From the NCBI GenBank assembly GCA_026709535.1, contig JAPOST010000106.1, positions 1 through 38,616 on the forward strand: DNA of 38,616 bases, given 5' to 3'. The notes beneath the pieces are model-generated. The model saw only the letters and a list, made by a program, of their open reading frames with translations, made no database searches and was not told the DNA's origin. A program made the position numbers and the translations under genes. Of this stretch, positions 7,948 through 36,986 are shown piece after piece. Source of the stretch: Rhodospirillaceae bacterium (GTDB lineage Bacteria; Pseudomonadota; Alphaproteobacteria; Bin65). Every line of letters starts with the position of its first letter. Within the stretch, counting starts at the first letter, position 1.

Positions 7948-9003
7948 TTGACCATCGATTCAGCAATCCAGCCGACCGACAATACAACCAGCCCCGTCTC
8001 CCGGAATCTTGTGACGGAAGAGGCTCCTGACAAGGTGGTCGCCGAGATCGAGAAGCTGGGCGACACGCTTGATCGCGTTCGCGCCGGCGTCGGTCGCGTC
8101 ATATTCGGTCAGGAAAAGGTGGTGGAACAGACACTGATAACACTGCTGTCCGGCGGCCATGTGCTGCTGATCGGCGTACCCGGCCTTGCGAAGACCAAGC
8201 TTGTCGAGACATTATCCACGGTCCTTGGCATGGATACCAACCGGATCCAATGTACACCGGACCTGATGCCTGCTGACATTCTGGGTTCTGAGGTCTTGGA
8301 AGAACAGGAAGCCAGCCGCCGCGCGTTCCGTTTCATCAAGGGACCAGTGTTCTGCCAGTTGCTGATGGCGGACGAAATCAACCGCGCCAGTCCGCGAACC
8401 CAGTCAGCCTTGCTGCAAGCCATGCAGGAACATCGGGTATCCATCGCTGGTCAGTATCATGCGCTACCCGAGCCCTTTCATGTGCTGGCCACCCAAAACC
8501 CGCTCGAACAGGAAGGCACCTATCCGCTTCCGGAGGCCCAACTTGACAGGTTCCTGCTGCAGGTCACGGTCGGCTATCCGGAACTTGCGTCCGAACGCCA
8601 GATCCTGCTGGCGACGACGGGCGTCGAAGAAGAGACGGCCAGCCGAGTGATTACCCCTGCGGAGCTGCAAAGAGCGCAACGCCTCATCCGCCAGATCCCG
8701 GTGGGCGAAAGCGTGCTGGAATCGATCCTGACACTGACGCGCAGCGGCCGTCCGGAAACAACATCGCTGGATGATGTCAAACGACATGTCGCCTGGGCCC
8801 CGGGACCGCGCGCCAGTCAGGCGCTCATGCTGGCCTGCCGCGCCCGCGCCGTTCTGAACGGTCGTCTGGCGCCATCGATCGACGATGTGATCGCGCTGGC
8901 CCCGCCTGTCCTGCGCCATCGCATGGCCCTGAACTTTGCCGCCCGCGCTGACGGCTTGGTGGTGGATACCGTCATCGACCGAATGTGCGATCCGCTCCGC
9001 TAG
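7948..9003 (+). CDS. MoxR-family AAA+ ATPase
   Basis: A 351-residue cytosolic AAA+ ATPase of the MoxR class, which acts as a chaperone-like partner of proteins with von Willebrand or MIDAS domains. Walker A is GVPGLAKT (76-83), Walker B is LLMADEIN (D142, E143), and sensor 1 falls in HVLATQNPLEQEGTYPLPEAQ. The C-terminal lid includes WAPGPRASQALML. It opens with TTG at 7948 behind a GGAG site. It heads a plus-strand operon with a DUF58 protein and two large membrane proteins, as in Bat-type aerotolerance loci. The client protein is not known from sequence; the DUF58 product is the obvious candidate. Confidence 0.93.
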   Translation: MTIDSAIQPTDNTTSPVSRNLVTEEAPDKVVAEIEKLGDTLDRVRAGVGRVIFGQEKVVEQTLITLLSGGHVLLIGVPGLAKTKLVETLSTVLGMDTNRIQCTPDLMPADILGSEVLEEQEASRRAFRFIKGPVFCQLLMADEINRASPRTQSALLQAMQEHRVSIAGQYHALPEPFHVLATQNPLEQEGTYPLPEAQLDRFLLQVTVGYPELASERQILLATTGVEEETASRVITPAELQRAQRLIRQIPVGESVLESILTLTRSGRPETTSLDDVKRHVAWAPGPRASQALMLACRARAVLNGRLAPSIDDVIALAPPVLRHRMALNFAARADGLVVDTVIDRMCDPLR

Positions 9004-9032
9004 TCGATCATTACCCGGCGATCCATACAGGC

Positions 9033-9920
9033 ATGAGCGAACTCGCTTCCCGATTCCGTATCCGGCGTGATGCCGAGACGAGCTCGAGTCGGCTACCGCC
9101 GCTCCTGGTCGCTGCACAGCGCGTCGCCGCCACGGTTGAACAGGGTGTCCACGGCAGGCGGCGTGTGGGCCTCGGGGAAACCTTCTGGCAGTTCCGTCAG
9201 TACGAACCGGGGGATTCGCTGCGCAGTATCGATTGGCGGCAGTCGGCAAAGACAGATCATATCTACATCCGGGAAACCGAATGGGCGGCCGTCCAGAGTG
9301 TTTGGCTTTGGCGCGATGCGTCAGCATCGATGCGGTGGCGATCGGGCAAGAAGATCCCGGCGAAGCGCGACCGCGCTGATCTGATGGCGCTGGCCCTGGC
9401 GTCGCTGCTGACCCGGGGTGGGGAGCAGATCGGCATGCTCGGCCTCGACGAGCGCGCGTCCAGCGGCTCGGTGGCACTGGATCGAATGGCCTTCAGCCTG
9501 CTAGGCAATGGTCCAGAACAGCAATCGCCTAACCTGCCCCGCTTTGAAAGCCTTCCGCGGCATTGTCATCTTGTCCTTTTCGGCGATTTTCTAACTCCCC
9601 TGGAAGAGATCGACCATCGGCTAAGGCAATTCGCGAGCAACCAGATCAGCGGCTATATCGTTCAGGTACTGGACCCGGCCGAAACCTCGCTGCCGTTCGA
9701 CGGACGCACCCGGTTCGAAGGCCTGGAAGATGAGGGCCGCATCCTGATCAAGCGCGTGGAGAATGTGCGCGAAGAGTATGTCGCCCGAATGGCCCGGCAA
9801 CGGGCCGGCCTTCAGGAAATCGCCCGCAGCATCGGCTGGAGCCTCGTAAGCCACATGACAGACCAACCGCCGGAGCAGGCACTGCTCGCACTTTTCGTCC
9901 GCATTGCGGCCGAGGTATGA
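9033..9920 (+). CDS. DUF58 protein with MIDAS-type motif
   Basis: A 295-residue soluble protein. The DUF58 hallmark QYEPGDSLRSIDWRQSAKT spans about residues 57-75, followed by a von Willebrand-like fold whose metal site D95-A-S-A-S99 keeps the DxSxS pattern. The start at 9033 (MSELASRF) follows moxR by 29 bp; an upstream in-frame ATG would overlap moxR. DUF58 proteins are regular partners of MoxR ATPases. The 3' neighbour begins 19 bp on. Whether the MIDAS binds metal here, and what it binds, is not known. Confidence 0.9.
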   Translation: MSELASRFRIRRDAETSSSRLPPLLVAAQRVAATVEQGVHGRRRVGLGETFWQFRQYEPGDSLRSIDWRQSAKTDHIYIRETEWAAVQSVWLWRDASASMRWRSGKKIPAKRDRADLMALALASLLTRGGEQIGMLGLDERASSGSVALDRMAFSLLGNGPEQQSPNLPRFESLPRHCHLVLFGDFLTPLEEIDHRLRQFASNQISGYIVQVLDPAETSLPFDGRTRFEGLEDEGRILIKRVENVREEYVARMARQRAGLQEIARSIGWSLVSHMTDQPPEQALLALFVRIAAEV

Positions 9921-9939: not shown

Positions 9940-12663
9940 ATGCTGACGCTCGGCGCTCTCGCCTTCGCCGCGCCCTGGATCCTGCTGGCCTTGGTGGGCG
10001 TTCCTGTTCTCTGGTGGTTGCTGCGCGTCACACCGCCATCGCCGAAGTTGGTGCAGTTTCCGGCAATCCGCCTGCTGTTCCGGCTTCAGGAAAAAGAGGA
10101 TACGCCGGCCCGAACGCCTTGGTGGTTGCTTTTGCTACGCGTCCTGATCGTCCTCCTGATCATCTTTGGTGTCGCCCACCCGCTGATGAATCCGGAGGAA
10201 GGGTTCAAGGAAAAAGGGCCGCTGGTGATCGTGATCGACAATGGTTGGTCAGCAGCGCCGAACTGGCAAACGCGCCAGAACAGCGTTTCCGAACTGCTGG
10301 ATACGGCGAGCCGGGAAGACCGCAAGGTCATTCTCATGGCGACCGCACGCCGCGCGCCGGCACAGCAGATCTCTGCCTCGAAGCTGATGCGCGCAGCCGA
10401 TGCCCGCGCCGTGTTCCAGGCCATGACACCCCAGCCATGGCCTGAAAATTACAAGGAAACCGCCCGCTCCCTAGACGAGTTGGCCAAGCGCACAAGCGAC
10501 GGTAACGTCGTCTGGCTATCCGATGGCCTTTTGCATCAGGACACAGAGACACTTATGGCCTCTCTCCAGAAGGTCGGCCGAGCCATGGCGCTGATCGACG
10601 CTGCTGGGGACCTGCCGGTGCTGCTGCACCCAGCTCGCTTGGCCGGCACCCACCTGGCCATCGCGCTGGAAAGGGCCAAGGTCGGTCGGCCCAAGCAGTA
10701 TGAACTTCAGATGATGGACGAAAACGGCCGCGTAATCGGGCGGCGCACCGTCTCCTTCAAGGCGTCGGATCGCAAGATCGATACGGTGTTGTCGCTGCCC
10801 GCCGAACTGCGCAACCGACTCGCGCAAGTCAGTGTGGACAGACATCAAGGCGTCGGGGCCACATTGCTTCTGGACGAGCGGTTGCGCCGCCGACCCGTCG
10901 GCGTGGTTTCCGCCGCGGCGCTGACCGGCAGCCATCGCCTGTTATCCGACCTGTTCTATATCGAGCGGGCGCTTTCGCCGTTCAGTGAGGTCCGCAAAGG
11001 TCCTATTGACCAGTTGTTGCAACGTCCTCTGTCGGTGATCTTCCTGCCTGACTGGGCACCGCTTACTCGGCAGGAAAGGGAGCGATTGGCGCGCTGGGTA
11101 AAGGGTGGTGGGTTGCTGGTCCGATTTGCTGGCCCTGCCCTGGCCCGGAACAGCGACGACCTAGTGCCCGTACGATTACGGAGCGGCGATCGATCCTTCG
11201 GCGGCGCGATGACGTGGGCGCAACCACTGGGTCTGGCCGACTTTGATGCCGACAGCCCATTTGCCGGATTGTCGGCGCCGAGTGATGTTTCCGTCAGGCG
11301 GCAAGTCCTGACCGAACCGGGGATCGAACTGGCGCGCAAGACCTGGGCGCGACTACGGGACGGTACGCCGCTGGTCACCGCCGATAAACGTGGAAAGGGC
11401 ATGATCGTGCTGTTCCACACGACGGCCAATCCGGATTGGTCGAACCTGCCGCTTTCCGGCATTTTTGTCGAAATGCTCCAGCGAACAGTGGCCTTGGGCC
11501 GCGGCGTCGCGGAAGGCGGCGCGCGGCAAACCATGCTGTTACCCTATCGAATTCTGGACGGCTTCGGCAAGTTGGTCGAAGCACCGGAATGGGTCCGCCC
11601 GATAGAAACCGTGAACTTCTCGAAAACTGTCGTTCGCCCCGCGAACCCGCCGGGCTTGTATGGCGATTCGGCCAGTCGGCGCAGCTTGAACCTGTCGTCG
11701 ACGGTCAGAAAACTGGAACCGCTGGATGCATTGCCGACAGGGATCACCAGATTAGGATACAAGAAGGCCAAAGAAATTGATCTTCGTCCTTGGCTGTTGA
11801 TGGCGGCGCTGGCCTTGTTCCTGCTTGATTTGCTGATCAGTTTCCTGATGCGCGGACTTCTGTCTCAAAGAACGGCAGCGAGGACGACAGTCCTGGTGGC
11901 GCTACTGGCTCTTCCTGGCGCTGTCCTGCTCGCTTCTGGTGTCGCGCCAGTCCAGGCCCAGATTCTGGAAGAGGATGCTATCCGAGCAACGCGCGAAACG
12001 GTTTTTGCTTACGTGAAGACCGGCAACAGCGGTGCGGACCGCGTCAGTCGACGCGGCCTGATCGGCTTGGGGATTGTTCTGGCCTCGCGAACCTCCGTCG
12101 AGCCCGGTCCGCCACGCGCAGTGGACGTGAACACCGATGAGTTGGCATTCTACCCCCTGTTGTACTGGCCGGTGATTGACGGCCAGACGCCGCCCACAAA
12201 ACAGGGCAATAGTCGGTTGCAAGCCTTTTTGCGCAACGGCGGCATGATCGTCTTCGACATTCGCTTGCCGGAAGGATTCCGGTCCAACGCACTGAAGAAC
12301 CTGGTAGCGGGATTGAAGATGCCCGCGTTTCAGGAGACGCCGTCAAACCATGTGTTGACCCGAGCTTATTACCTGCTTCAGCGGTTCCCGGGTCGCCGGA
12401 CGGGCGAGCCGGTCTGGGTTGCTCGGCAAGATCAGACAGCCAACGACGGCGTATCCCCGATTATCATCGGCTCCAACGACTGGGCCTCGGCTTGGGCGGT
12501 CGATCTGTCCGGCCGTCCAATGTTCCCGGCACCGCCGGGCGGCGAGTATCAGCGCGAACTGGCCTATCGGGTTGGCATCAATATCGTGATGTACGCCCTG
12601 ACCGGCAACTACAAATCAGACCAGGTTCACATCCCGACCATCATTCGACGGCTGGGGCAATAG
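9940..12663 (+). CDS. Membrane protein: BatA-like N-terminus fused to DUF4159
   Basis: A 907-residue envelope protein. It has two N-terminal helices (about 8-28 and 61-80, the second after a TPWW motif) as in BatA-like proteins. A von Willebrand-like strand follows, VIVIDNGWS, where the MIDAS pattern is degraded to D100-N-G-W-S104. Next comes a glutamine-amidotransferase-like segment GGGLLVRFAGPALA, a helix near 617-637, then a hydrophobic stretch ending PVQAQ that looks like an internal signal peptide. The C-terminal DUF4159 domain (about 675-905) contains RNGGMIVFDIR. I see no cysteine anywhere in it. ATG at 9940 begins the conserved helix. Function unknown; it is probably the periplasm-facing part of the MoxR system. 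Confidence 0.85.
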   Translation: MLTLGALAFAAPWILLALVGVPVLWWLLRVTPPSPKLVQFPAIRLLFRLQEKEDTPARTPWWLLLLRVLIVLLIIFGVAHPLMNPEEGFKEKGPLVIVIDNGWSAAPNWQTRQNSVSELLDTASREDRKVILMATARRAPAQQISASKLMRAADARAVFQAMTPQPWPENYKETARSLDELAKRTSDGNVVWLSDGLLHQDTETLMASLQKVGRAMALIDAAGDLPVLLHPARLAGTHLAIALERAKVGRPKQYELQMMDENGRVIGRRTVSFKASDRKIDTVLSLPAELRNRLAQVSVDRHQGVGATLLLDERLRRRPVGVVSAAALTGSHRLLSDLFYIERALSPFSEVRKGPIDQLLQRPLSVIFLPDWAPLTRQERERLARWVKGGGLLVRFAGPALARNSDDLVPVRLRSGDRSFGGAMTWAQPLGLADFDADSPFAGLSAPSDVSVRRQVLTEPGIELARKTWARLRDGTPLVTADKRGKGMIVLFHTTANPDWSNLPLSGIFVEMLQRTVALGRGVAEGGARQTMLLPYRILDGFGKLVEAPEWVRPIETVNFSKTVVRPANPPGLYGDSASRRSLNLSSTVRKLEPLDALPTGITRLGYKKAKEIDLRPWLLMAALALFLLDLLISFLMRGLLSQRTAARTTVLVALLALPGAVLLASGVAPVQAQILEEDAIRATRETVFAYVKTGNSGADRVSRRGLIGLGIVLASRTSVEPGPPRAVDVNTDELAFYPLLYWPVIDGQTPPTKQGNSRLQAFLRNGGMIVFDIRLPEGFRSNALKNLVAGLKMPAFQETPSNHVLTRAYYLLQRFPGRRTGEPVWVARQDQTANDGVSPIIIGSNDWASAWAVDLSGRPMFPAPPGGEYQRELAYRVGINIVMYALTGNYKSDQVHIPTIIRRLGQ

Positions 12664-12675
12664 GCCGGCGCATTG

Positions 12676-14757
12676 ATGAGCGATCTGGGTACAAGCATTG
12701 CTTTCTCGCCGTTGGCGCCTTGGGAGGCGCTGTATACCTTTGCCGGCGTCACGGCGATCCTCGTTCTGACAGGCCTCTTCCTCAAGGCGCGCGGCATTTT
12801 TTTCCGGGCGCTGGCCGCCATCGTCCTGTTGGCCGTGCTGGCCAATCCGTCTCTGGTGATGGAAAACCGCAATACGCTGAGCGACATCGCGGTGGTGGTC
12901 GTCGATGAATCGCCAAGTCAGGATATGAACAACCGGCGGGAACTGAACACTAGAACTCTTGCAGACGTCCGCAAGAAATTACAGGCCATGGTTGGCCTGG
13001 AAATCAAGGTCGTTCGCGTCGGCCTCGACCGGTCAGAGGACGGCACGATAGTCTTCGGCCCCTTGGAAAGAGCGCTGGCTGACGTCCCGCGCAAGCGGCT
13101 GGCCGGAGTCATCATCATCACCGATGGGCAGATCCATGACGCACAGACCAAGAATCAGATGGTCCGCGACATTGGTCCGGTCCATTTCCTGCTGACTGGC
13201 AAGAAGCACGAAGGCGATCGCCGGCTTGTGGTCGAATCGGCGCCATCCTACGGCTTGGTGGGCAAGCCCCTGACGATGAAGATCCGGGTCGACGACAATG
13301 CCGCGCAGCCTGGTGACAATGCCGTCGTTCGCGTGAAACGGGACGGCAAGCTGTGGCGCAGGTTCGCGCTCAACGTCAATTTAACCACCCCGATCGACAT
13401 TCGCCTGGAACACCGCGGGCAGACTTTCTTCGAGTTGGAAGTCGATCGCGGCCGTCAGGAACTGACGCTGGAAAACAATAGCAAGGTCATCACCATCAAC
13501 GGTATCCGCGACCGGCTTCGTGTGCTCTTGGTCTCCGGTGAACCGCATCCCGGCGAGCGCGCATGGCGCAACATTCTGAAGGCGGATCCGGGCGTGGATC
13601 TCGTGCATTTCACCATTCTGCGCCCGCCGGAAAAGCGCGACATGACGCCAGTCAACGAATTGGCCCTGATCTCCTTTCCGGTTCGAGAACTGTTCCAGGA
13701 AAAACTGGATCAGTTCCACCTGATCATCTTCGACCGCTATAGGCGACGGGGCGTAATCCGAGCCCATTATCTGCAGAACATCGCCGAGTACGTCAAGCGA
13801 GGCGGCGCGCTAATGGTAGCGGCCGGACCGGCCTATGCCGGCCCGCTGAGTCTGGCGCACACGGCGGTCGGCCCGCTGTTGCCCGGACGGCAGACCGGCG
13901 AAATCTATCGCCGGGGCTTTCGCGCCACACGGACGGAAGAAGGCAAGCGGCATCCGGTCACTGCGCGCCTTTCCGGCGCTGGCGCGGGCCCCAGCCCCTG
14001 GGGCCGCTGGTTCCGCCAGATCGAGGTGTCAAGATTGCGTGGTAACGTCCTGCTCGACGGATTGTACAGCAAGCCGCTGCTGATCCTGGATCGAGTCGGC
14101 AAGGGCCGGGTTGCACAACTGTTATCCGACCAGGCATGGCTGTGGGATCGCGGCTTTGAAGGCGGTGGCCCCCAGGCCGAATTACTGCGTCGCGTCTCGC
14201 ACTGGCTGATGAAAGAACCGGAACTAGAAGAAGAGTATCTCCAGGCGCAGATCCGCAACCGCCGACTGGAGATCCTGCGTCGCAGCCTGAAGCCCTCAAA
14301 CCGGTCGGCCCGCCTGACCATGCCGGACGGCAAGGCTGTTCAGATGCCGATGAAAGACAGAGGCGATGGCACGGCTATCGGATCAATGGCAGTGAAATTG
14401 CCCGGCCTTTATCGGATCACAGACGGTGCGTTGAGCACGATGGTCGCGATTGGCTCACTAAATCCGCAGGAAATCTCGGACGTGCGCACCACCGACAAGA
14501 TGGCAAAAGCATTGATCGAAGCCAACACCGGCAGTGTGGTGTGGTTGGGCGAAAGCGGAGCGCCGGACATCCGCAGGGTGGATCGGGAGCGCCGGACCAG
14601 CGGCACGAGCGGCGTGTCCGGCCAATGGATCGGTCTGATCCGTAATGGCGACTATATGGTTACCGGCATTCGCGACACTCCGATGTTGGTCGGCCTTCTG
14701 GCATTGTTGCTGGCCCTGTTGCCGATACTCACAGGATGGCGCCGTGAAGGCAAGTAA
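12676..14757 (+). CDS. Large membrane protein with VWA-like and GATase-like regions
   Basis: A 693-residue protein with two N-terminal helices (about 16-35 and 41-58), a large soluble region and a C-terminal helix just before the end (TPMLVGLLALLLALLP). After helix 2 comes VVVVDESPSQ, whose D77-x-S79-x-S81 keeps a MIDAS-like pattern. Around residue 370, KRGGALMVAAGPAYAG resembles the nucleophile-elbow region of class I glutamine amidotransferases without the Cys. No cysteine is present in the protein. It starts at ATG 12676, 12 bp after the DUF4159 gene, and ends the moxR operon. Homologues are usually annotated only as membrane or glutamine-amidotransferase-like proteins; function unknown. 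Confidence 0.82.
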   Translation: MSDLGTSIAFSPLAPWEALYTFAGVTAILVLTGLFLKARGIFFRALAAIVLLAVLANPSLVMENRNTLSDIAVVVVDESPSQDMNNRRELNTRTLADVRKKLQAMVGLEIKVVRVGLDRSEDGTIVFGPLERALADVPRKRLAGVIIITDGQIHDAQTKNQMVRDIGPVHFLLTGKKHEGDRRLVVESAPSYGLVGKPLTMKIRVDDNAAQPGDNAVVRVKRDGKLWRRFALNVNLTTPIDIRLEHRGQTFFELEVDRGRQELTLENNSKVITINGIRDRLRVLLVSGEPHPGERAWRNILKADPGVDLVHFTILRPPEKRDMTPVNELALISFPVRELFQEKLDQFHLIIFDRYRRRGVIRAHYLQNIAEYVKRGGALMVAAGPAYAGPLSLAHTAVGPLLPGRQTGEIYRRGFRATRTEEGKRHPVTARLSGAGAGPSPWGRWFRQIEVSRLRGNVLLDGLYSKPLLILDRVGKGRVAQLLSDQAWLWDRGFEGGGPQAELLRRVSHWLMKEPELEEEYLQAQIRNRRLEILRRSLKPSNRSARLTMPDGKAVQMPMKDRGDGTAIGSMAVKLPGLYRITDGALSTMVAIGSLNPQEISDVRTTDKMAKALIEANTGSVVWLGESGAPDIRRVDRERRTSGTSGVSGQWIGLIRNGDYMVTGIRDTPMLVGLLALLLALLPILTGWRREGK

Positions 14758-35349: not shown

Positions 35350-36986
35350 AGCGCAGTATGATCGGCGACCGTCTCCTCAGCGTTGATAATCTGCAGGTTG
35401 ATTTCAGCACGCCCAATGGGCCGCTGCATGCAGTGAAGGGCATCTCGTTTTACGTCGACAGGGGAGAGACCTTGGCGATCGTAGGAGAAAGCGGCTCCGG
35501 CAAGTCGGTCTCGGCACTGTCGATCCTCCAGTTGCTACCCTACCCCCAAGCCAGCCATCCGAGCGGTCGCATCGTCTACCAGGACCACGAATTGATCGGC
35601 GCGCCGCAGCCGATCCTGCGCAAGATCCGGGGAAATCGGATTTCGATGATATTCCAAGAGCCTCTCACCGCCCTGAACCCGCTCCACACGGTCGAAAAGC
35701 AGATCAACGAAGTCCTGCGCCTCCACAAGGGCATGCTTAAGAGCGCCGCCCGCAGGCGAACGCTGGATTTACTTGACAAGGTCGGCATCAGGGATGCCGA
35801 GCGCCGTTTGAGTTCTTTCCCGCACGAACTGTCGGGAGGGCAACGCCAACGGATCATGATTGCGATGGCGCTGGCCAACGAGCCGGACTTGCTGATCGCC
35901 GACGAACCGACAACCGCCGTCGATGTCACAATTCAGGCTCAAATCCTCAAACTGCTGAAAGACTTGCAGGCGGAAATGGGGATGGGGATCCTGTTCATTA
36001 CCCACGATCTGGGCGTCGTGGAACATTTTGCTGACCGTGTAGCCGTCATGCGCCTTGGCGAAATCGTGGAGCAGGGCACCGTGCAATCAGTCTTTGGAAA
36101 CCCTCAGCACGAATATACCCGGCGATTGCTAGCGTCGGAACTGAAGGGCGCCCCGCCTGCAGTGCCCAATGACGCCAAAGAAATTCTCAGCGCCAAAGAT
36201 TTCAAGGTTTGGTATCCAATCAAGTCTGGCGTTTTCCGACGGACGGTCGGTCACGTGAAGGCGGTCGACAACGTCACTTTCAAGATAAGATATGGTGAGG
36301 CCGTCGGGATCGTCGGCGAAAGCGGCTCCGGCAAGACGTCGATGGGTCTCGGCCTTCTGCGCCTTATCTCCAGTCGGGGCTCGATTATATATCAAGGCCA
36401 GAACATCCAGGGTCTGGGTTGGAAGGCACTCCGGCCACTCCGCCGCGAAATGCAGATCGTCTTCCAAGATCCATTCGGAAGTTTGAGCCCGCGTCTTTCC
36501 GTTGGAGAAATTGTCGAGGAGGGCCTCAAGATACACGGAATCGGTTCCCCTGACGAACGAGAAAAGGCAGTGATTGAAGCTCTGGCCGAAACCGGGCTTG
36601 ATCCAGAAACACGGCACCGCTATCCGCATGAATTCTCCGGAGGGCAGCGTCAGCGCATATCAATCGCCCGCGCCATGGTCCTGAAACCCAACGTAGTCGT
36701 GTTGGACGAGCCGACTTCCGCCCTGGATCGGTCGGTGCAGAGTCAAATCATTGATCTGTTGCACCGGCTTCAACACGACCACAATCTGGCTTACCTGTTC
36801 ATCAGCCACGACCTGAAAGTCGTCCGAGCGATGAGCCATCATGTGATTGTTATGCGCGATGGCAAGGTGGTGGAACAGGGCCCGGCCATTGAGGTACTGG
36901 ACAATCCGCAGGCCCCCTACACCCAAGTCCTGATGGATGCTGCTTTCGACTTCAAAGCCGACGAAACGGGCGTCGTCACCGGGTAA
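35346..36986 (+). CDS. yejF: Peptide ABC transporter ATP-binding protein, YejF type (two ABC domains)
   Basis: A 546-residue fused ATPase with two nucleotide-binding domains. The first has Walker A GESGSGKS (47-54), signature LSGGQRQRIMIAMAL and Walker B LLIADEPTTAVD. The second has Walker A GESGSGKT near residue 320, signature FSGGQRQRISIARAM and Walker B VVVLDEPTSALD. Both ATP sites look intact. The oligopeptide-transporter C-terminal motifs are also present (PQHEYTRRLL and PQAPYTQVLM). It starts with GTG at 35346 within the yejE stop; an ATG at 35358 is possible. It closes the yej operon. Confidence 0.94.
   Translation: MKRSMIGDRLLSVDNLQVDFSTPNGPLHAVKGISFYVDRGETLAIVGESGSGKSVSALSILQLLPYPQASHPSGRIVYQDHELIGAPQPILRKIRGNRISMIFQEPLTALNPLHTVEKQINEVLRLHKGMLKSAARRRTLDLLDKVGIRDAERRLSSFPHELSGGQRQRIMIAMALANEPDLLIADEPTTAVDVTIQAQILKLLKDLQAEMGMGILFITHDLGVVEHFADRVAVMRLGEIVEQGTVQSVFGNPQHEYTRRLLASELKGAPPAVPNDAKEILSAKDFKVWYPIKSGVFRRTVGHVKAVDNVTFKIRYGEAVGIVGESGSGKTSMGLGLLRLISSRGSIIYQGQNIQGLGWKALRPLRREMQIVFQDPFGSLSPRLSVGEIVEEGLKIHGIGSPDEREKAVIEALAETGLDPETRHRYPHEFSGGQRQRISIARAMVLKPNVVVLDEPTSALDRSVQSQIIDLLHRLQHDHNLAYLFISHDLKVVRAMSHHVIVMRDGKVVEQGPAIEVLDNPQAPYTQVLMDAAFDFKADETGVVTG

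Follow-up and report, generated by a model that had tools for sequence, protein, structure and literature searches.

Why two adjacent large membrane proteins of a MoxR operon should contain no cysteine is the question raised by P1 and P2, two open reading frames of a Rhodospirillaceae bacterium that lie within the 38,616 nt stretch of DNA analyzed here (the window). P1 has a chain length of 907 aa and P2 of 693 aa, and cysteine is found at none of the 907 and none of the 693 positions. The MoxR protein of the same operon has four cysteines (aa positions 102, 136, 297 and 347) and the DUF58 protein has one (aa position 194). The original prediction had the coordinates and lengths of both large proteins right, and its reading of zero cysteine in them, several in MoxR and one in DUF58 is borne out. 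It further proposed that catalytically dead glutamine amidotransferase (GATase) folds serve here as binding modules, perhaps in an oxidising periplasm where stray thiols are selected against. The absence of cysteine is attributed here mainly to compartment, i.e. to selection against unpaired thiols in the periplasm, with GATase-like domains from branches of the fold that, independently, have no Cys nucleophile, and with P1 and P2 as partners of MoxR and DUF58. We assign this reading a probability of about 0.75.

The MoxR operon and its cysteine-free proteins

The features of the operon are listed in Table 1. The gene order MoxR-DUF58-P1-P2 is found in all 66 loci that have the four genes, and the distance from the P1 stop codon to the P2 start is most often −4, a four-base overlap. 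P1 belongs to the BatA N-terminal family (PF07584) at aa positions 7–81 (68.9 bits, curated cut-off 25.9) and to the DUF4159 family (PF13709) at aa positions 689–887 (158.7 bits, curated cut-off 25.9).

Table 1. Features of the MoxR operon, in window positions; domain parts are from profile matches, hydropathy and structural models.
Feature	Position	Strand	Description and basis
MoxR-type AAA+ ATPase	7948–9003	+	351 aa from TTG start; AAA_3 200.6 bits (cut-off 27)
DUF58 protein	8985–9920	+	311 aa; PF01882 127.5 bits (cut-off 23.4)
P1	9940–12663 (coding 9940–12660)	+	907 aa; PF07584 and PF13709 above cut-offs; model pLDDT 81.6
P1, parts in order			BatA N-terminal double-TM, degenerate vWA-like, GATase-like (318–522), TM3, signal-peptide-like TM4, DUF4159 (689–887)
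P1 GATase-like domain	10891–11505	+	residues 318–522; Z 18.1–18.8 to 3soz, 2gk3, 3rht
P1 elbow FAGPALA	11125–11145		residues 396–402
P1 TM4	11884–11955	+	internal signal-peptide-like segment, residues 649–672; hydropathy; model helix 643–665
P1 DUF4159 domain	12004–12600	+	PF13709; 4i66 Z 23.4
P2	12676–14757 (coding 12676–14754)	+	693 aa; model pLDDT 85.2; fold matches; MIDAS columns
P2, parts			TM-TM, vWA with DxSxS, CARDB-like beta domain, GATase-like (280–518), C-terminal beta parts, C-terminal TM
P2 GATase-like domain	13513–14229	+	residues 280–518; Z 23.0 to 2gk3 and 3rht
P2 elbow AAGPAYA	13819–13839		residues 382–388

A sample of the organism's own genome was taken for comparison (40 stretches totalling 712,251 bases, about one fifth of the genome, together with the window), in which a simple codon-score caller gave 570 genes. 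P1 and P2 are the two longest cysteine-free genes among these, and the only ones among the 47 called genes of at least 600 aa. The overall cysteine rate is 1.05% of residues, and it is 0.55% in a crude class of 28 genes that display a single N-terminal hydrophobic segment. About 17 cysteines are thus expected in 1600 residues at the first rate and about nine at the second, with Poisson chances of none near 5e-8 and 1.5e-4. The third longest cysteine-free gene of the sample is a 542 aa open reading frame at window positions 35358–36986; it has no membrane segment and by sight looks like a cytoplasmic two-domain ABC ATPase.

Cysteine in homologues and in other envelope proteins

A search with P1 gave 11 loci, which have the same gene order, and one with P2 found 80 loci among titled genome records. 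Of 289 genomes of the class searched for DUF4159, 154 had a match, and 40 further stretches were taken from these, favouring the weak end of the list. Profile searches of these loci gave a P1 match in 159, of which 120 are full-length and 39 are partial, mostly at short flanks, and were excluded; P2 matched in 117 loci, all full-length. The counts are slightly redundant, as a few loci appear to be from the same organism (e.g. L009 and L013). Cysteine is absent from 85 of the 120 P1 homologues (9/10, 54/71 and 22/39 by set) and from 90 of the 117 P2 homologues (67/78 and 23/39).

The cysteines that are present are mostly found in one type of region. Regions were assigned by alignment to the window proteins, whose topology was predicted from hydropathy, from charge judged by sight and from helices in the models. 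In P1 homologues the regions that contain TM segments have 39 cysteines in 12,168 residues, vs 11 in 93,509 predicted periplasmic residues, a 27-fold lower rate; in P2 homologues the numbers are 33 in 10,109 and 3 in 71,122, a 77-fold lower rate, and in both comparisons (Fisher) the homologous sequences are related and do not constitute independent tests. Predicted periplasmic cysteines number zero in 113 P1 homologues, one in three and two in four, and zero in 114 P2 homologues and one in three. The P1 sequences of L072 and L077 each have two such residues, 12 positions apart at the start of DUF4159, a spacing that might fit a disulfide. TM4 of P1 carries 13 of the 20 cysteines of the near homologue set. 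The predicted cytoplasmic loops of P1 homologues have none in 4,620 residues, a small amount of sequence. MoxR relatives at the same loci have 0.64% cysteine and DUF58 relatives 0.25%. The DUF58 relatives are thus also cysteine-poor (40 of 78 have none), though DUF58 is probably cytoplasmic here. Resolved by region, P1 and P2 are a clear example of cysteine exclusion, in which membrane segments tolerate the residue and the parts outside almost never do. The pattern foreseen by the original prediction, the exclusion of thiols outside the cytoplasm, is present in these counts.

Three envelope families, YidC, TamB and PBP1, were used as matched controls, each from 58 genomes of the class, with the strand taken from the match tables. 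YidC was analyzed in 29 of 30 loci (L274 was left out) and PBP1 in all 30. For TamB 18 loci were used, i.e. 17 of L204–L223 plus L224; L216 has an internal stop, L222 and L223 are below the cut-off, L225 is a second short match beside L217, and these were left out. The YidC periplasmic domain is cysteine-free in 28 of 29 loci and the C-terminal part of TamB in 14 of 18; for PBP1, counted from the transglycosylase domain onward, the number is 16 of 30. The cysteine rates are 0.0042% for the predicted periplasmic part of P2, 0.0123% for YidC, 0.14% for PBP1 and 0.22% for TamB. Long cysteine-free periplasmic stretches are therefore usual in the class, and the tally that the original prediction called for shows P1 and P2 to be no outliers beside these families. 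They are at the strict end, since only about half of the PBP1 loci are cysteine-free and the crude exported class of the organism's own genome averages 0.55%. The TamB sequences of L219, L220 and L221, which are kept in the count, have 19, 9 and 3 cysteines; the genomes concerned are 1.0 to 1.7 Mb in size, and oxidation in the periplasm may have been lost in such reduced genomes.

DsbB is found in the organism's own genome. Exported proteins are known to favour even numbers of cysteines, which limits wrong disulfides (Dutton et al. 2008, as cited in PMC7678975). Together with the control counts, these points make compartment the best cause of the absence. The lack of cysteine in P1 and P2 is real and conserved, and compartment is its probable main cause, much as for other envelope proteins of the class that have no disulfides.

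GATase-like folds and the missing nucleophile

AlphaFold2 models were made from 43 (P1) and 48 (P2) sequences. These models display GATase-like folds in three places, in agreement with the original prediction, i.e. at aa positions 280–518 of P2 and at 318–522 and 686–888 of P1. The P2 region is closest to 2gk3 (rmsd 2.6 over 208 residues) and 3rht (rmsd 2.5 over 207 residues), followed by 3soz (Z 22.7). ThuA-like proteins and IFT52 rank lower, and then, less well, real GATases. The first P1 region matches the same three structures, and the DUF4159 region matches 4i66 (rmsd 2.4 over 193 residues). Active class I GATases are also similar to the modeled domains (1i7q with Z 14.0 to P2, and 2nv0 with Z 14.1 to P1). 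At the sequence level, the GATase1_like profile (PF07090) gives P2 11.3 bits vs a cut-off of 27, and 16 of 48 homologues have an E-value of 0.01 or below, the best being 5.7e-6. A search of P2 alone against the sequences of solved structures gave weak ICAM-1-like matches only.

The P2 vWA domain has no Pfam vWA match above cut-off. Its MIDAS residues are conserved, with D77, S or T79 and S81 in 118 of 118 rows and D150 in 117, and its CARDB-like part matches 2kl6. The P1 vWA-like domain has no DxSxS motif, and the comparable columns are mostly D (column 100, 116/121), G (column 102, 107/121) and A (column 104, 82/121). As to a possible paralogy of P1 and P2, an hhalign comparison places the two in register from TM2 through the GATase domain, elbows included, with a probability of only 25.6% and an E-value of 7.4e-4. 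FAGPALA of P1 is paired with AAGPAYA of P2 in this alignment, and both are therefore probably elbows of the same kind. The fold assignments thus give the two uncharacterised proteins a matching anatomy of a vWA and a GATase-like domain.

Class I GATases hold the nucleophile Cys on a strand-turn-helix elbow. The three segments noted in the original prediction, FAGPALA, AAGPAYA and the DUF4159 segment FDIR (P1 aa positions 772–775), are each located at the end of a strand in the models. The nucleophile is indeed absent, as P1 and P2 have no Cys of any kind, and both proteins have the fold of a class I GATase enzyme but not its nucleophile. The predicted periplasmic cysteines of the homologues do not fall at either P1 elbow, GATase-like or DUF4159, and one falls at the P2 elbow (L084, column 385, 1 of 118 rows). 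That residue is in frame in a sequence that resembles L092, and comes from a single metagenome record in which the P1 match is partial. Homologues with an elbow Cys, which would count against the original prediction, are thus lacking for P1, and occur once for P2 and in a stand-alone branch of DUF4159. In the fused class the DUF4159 elbow has the sequence FDTR or a close variant of it; 4i66 has IDSAEG, Gemmatirosa VDDFMRD, a Corynebacterium plasmid IDDNYG, and all five stand-alone proteobacterial proteins VDDCNHD. An Asp just before the elbow is common to all of these, and an elbow Cys is absent from the three examples examined from other phyla (Haliangium, Gemmatirosa and the Corynebacterium plasmid). 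The Cys is therefore particular to one branch, and no amidotransferase is seen dying in the operon.

It is nevertheless conceivable that the GATase-like domains descend from amidotransferases whose nucleophile was lost within the operon, and that they now act as binding modules and drive the lack of cysteine. The modeled folds, the similarity to active class I enzymes and the VDDCNHD branch are in keeping with such an origin. However, STM3548 (2gk3) and STM1381 (3soz), the nearest relatives, have Gly-Gly-Tyr and no Cys at the aligned elbow (profile alignment) although titled cytoplasmic, and the other-phylum DUF4159 sequences also have no elbow Cys. The missing nucleophile therefore belongs to that branch of the fold, and the claim that amidotransferases were killed in P1 and P2, or by the periplasm, is not supported. 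A lost nucleophile would moreover account for three residues and not for 1600. This origin is considered unlikely; the domains are probably scaffold or binding modules. The analysis thus separates a lack of cysteine driven by compartment from a lack of catalytic Cys that belongs to a fold branch.

BatA is named for aerotolerance, and the pair might work under strong oxidative stress, where crosslinking must be avoided. The predicted periplasmic rate of P2, below those of YidC, PBP1 and TamB, would fit such a function, but YidC and most TamB are similarly cysteine-free with no such role, and nothing here ties the operon to oxidants. A function of this kind appears improbable. Cysteine is a rare residue, and composition or chance could have left two long proteins with none, as in the probably cytoplasmic 542 aa open reading frame. 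Against this, the absence is conserved across the class, is concentrated in one topological region and affects two of 47 long genes. Chance is very improbable indeed, and was rejected on the region-resolved counts over 120 P1 and 117 P2 homologues.

DUF4159, a proposed role and comparison with known systems

Within the class, DUF4159 almost always forms part of a long open frame. In one genome (G022) it stands alone (299 aa frame, 233 aa protein) and is followed by MoxR and DUF58, with an upstream open reading frame that by sight resembles TldD. The four matches in other classes of the phylum are all in short frames as well, of 244–275 aa. A stand-alone DUF4159 gene is also found on plasmid pCRULAC1 of Corynebacterium crudilactis, between resistance genes and IS elements. 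The five stand-alone proteobacterial proteins (L319–L323) each have 3 to 6 cysteines, and three are common to all five, in FCYLAG, VDDCNHD and GCEWDY. By eye they have a basic start followed by a short hydrophobic signal-like segment, in one case with a twin arginine. The odd number of conserved cysteines in these exported-looking proteins suggests a metal or catalytic thiol. Compartment is therefore not an absolute rule, and export alone does not forbid cysteine in DUF4159.

An AxA motif is found near TM4 in 91 of 121 P1 rows, vs 0 of 121 for TM1, 3 of 121 for TM2, 34 of 121 for TM3 and 1 of 118 for TM2 of P2. Shuffling of the same Ala-rich tails gave a mean of 64.7 and a maximum of 77 in 500 rounds. 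P1 of the window has VQA and not AxA in this location, with a possible signal peptidase site VQA-Q. TM4 may thus be a signal peptide kept after fusion, with modest support from the AxA counts. We tentatively suggest, as a possibility, that P1 arose by fusion of a BatA/GATase-like membrane protein with an exported DUF4159 protein that was once a chain of its own. The signal peptide of the latter would have become TM4 and may still be cut by signal peptidase, releasing DUF4159 into the periplasm; the stand-alone form would use a thiol or metal and the fused form would be thiol-free. The Cys-bearing stand-alone branch is the best lead, as a contrast to the fused form. Literature searches found no paper on DUF4159 by name, and for GATase-like, IFT52, CARDB, ThuA and BatA gave only unrelated papers among the matches listed.

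Most likely P1 and P2 form a pair that serves a MoxR/DUF58 ATPase system for envelope integrity as its periplasmic partner. Both would be inner-membrane proteins with a predicted periplasmic location of the long soluble parts (about 770 residues in P1 and about 600 in P2), where the vWA and GATase-like domains would form a scaffold. MoxR and DUF58 would act from the cytoplasm on this membrane-anchored pair, in which the P2 vWA domain keeps a metal-binding motif. Selection against unpaired thiols in an oxidising, Dsb-containing periplasm most likely removed cysteine from the soluble parts. Cysteine is still found in the membrane segments, and two related loci have a close pair of it. The GATase-like domains would independently belong to fold branches with no Cys nucleophile.

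In Rhizobium leguminosarum the partners of the MoxR protein RL3499 reportedly include a DUF58 protein and two large membrane proteins. By gene content, the RL3499–RL3502 operon is a candidate relative of the MoxR operon of the window. It is titled a broadly conserved operon, and RL3499 is cited as having an important part in both membrane integrity and cell morphology (Vanderlinde et al. 2011). The exported proteins of Dutton et al. (2008), as reported in PMC7678975, resemble P1 and P2 in avoiding odd numbers of cysteines, P1 and P2 having none or rare pairs; the trend is however one of even counts, whereas P1 and P2 display a near-total absence over 1600 residues. Hoch_4089 (4i66) has a DUF4159 domain like that of P1, with 28% identity over the 193 aligned residues, but was solved as a separate 209 aa chain and shows one Cys among the aligned residues. 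STM3548, STM1381 and the Planctomyces protein 3rht, which are of the GATase1_like (PF07090) type, have their fold in common with P2 280–518 and P1 318–522. The two Salmonella proteins, STM3548 and STM1381, are titled cytoplasmic and have Cys elsewhere in the chain, whereas the comparable domains of P1 and P2 are located inside membrane proteins together with vWA-like domains.
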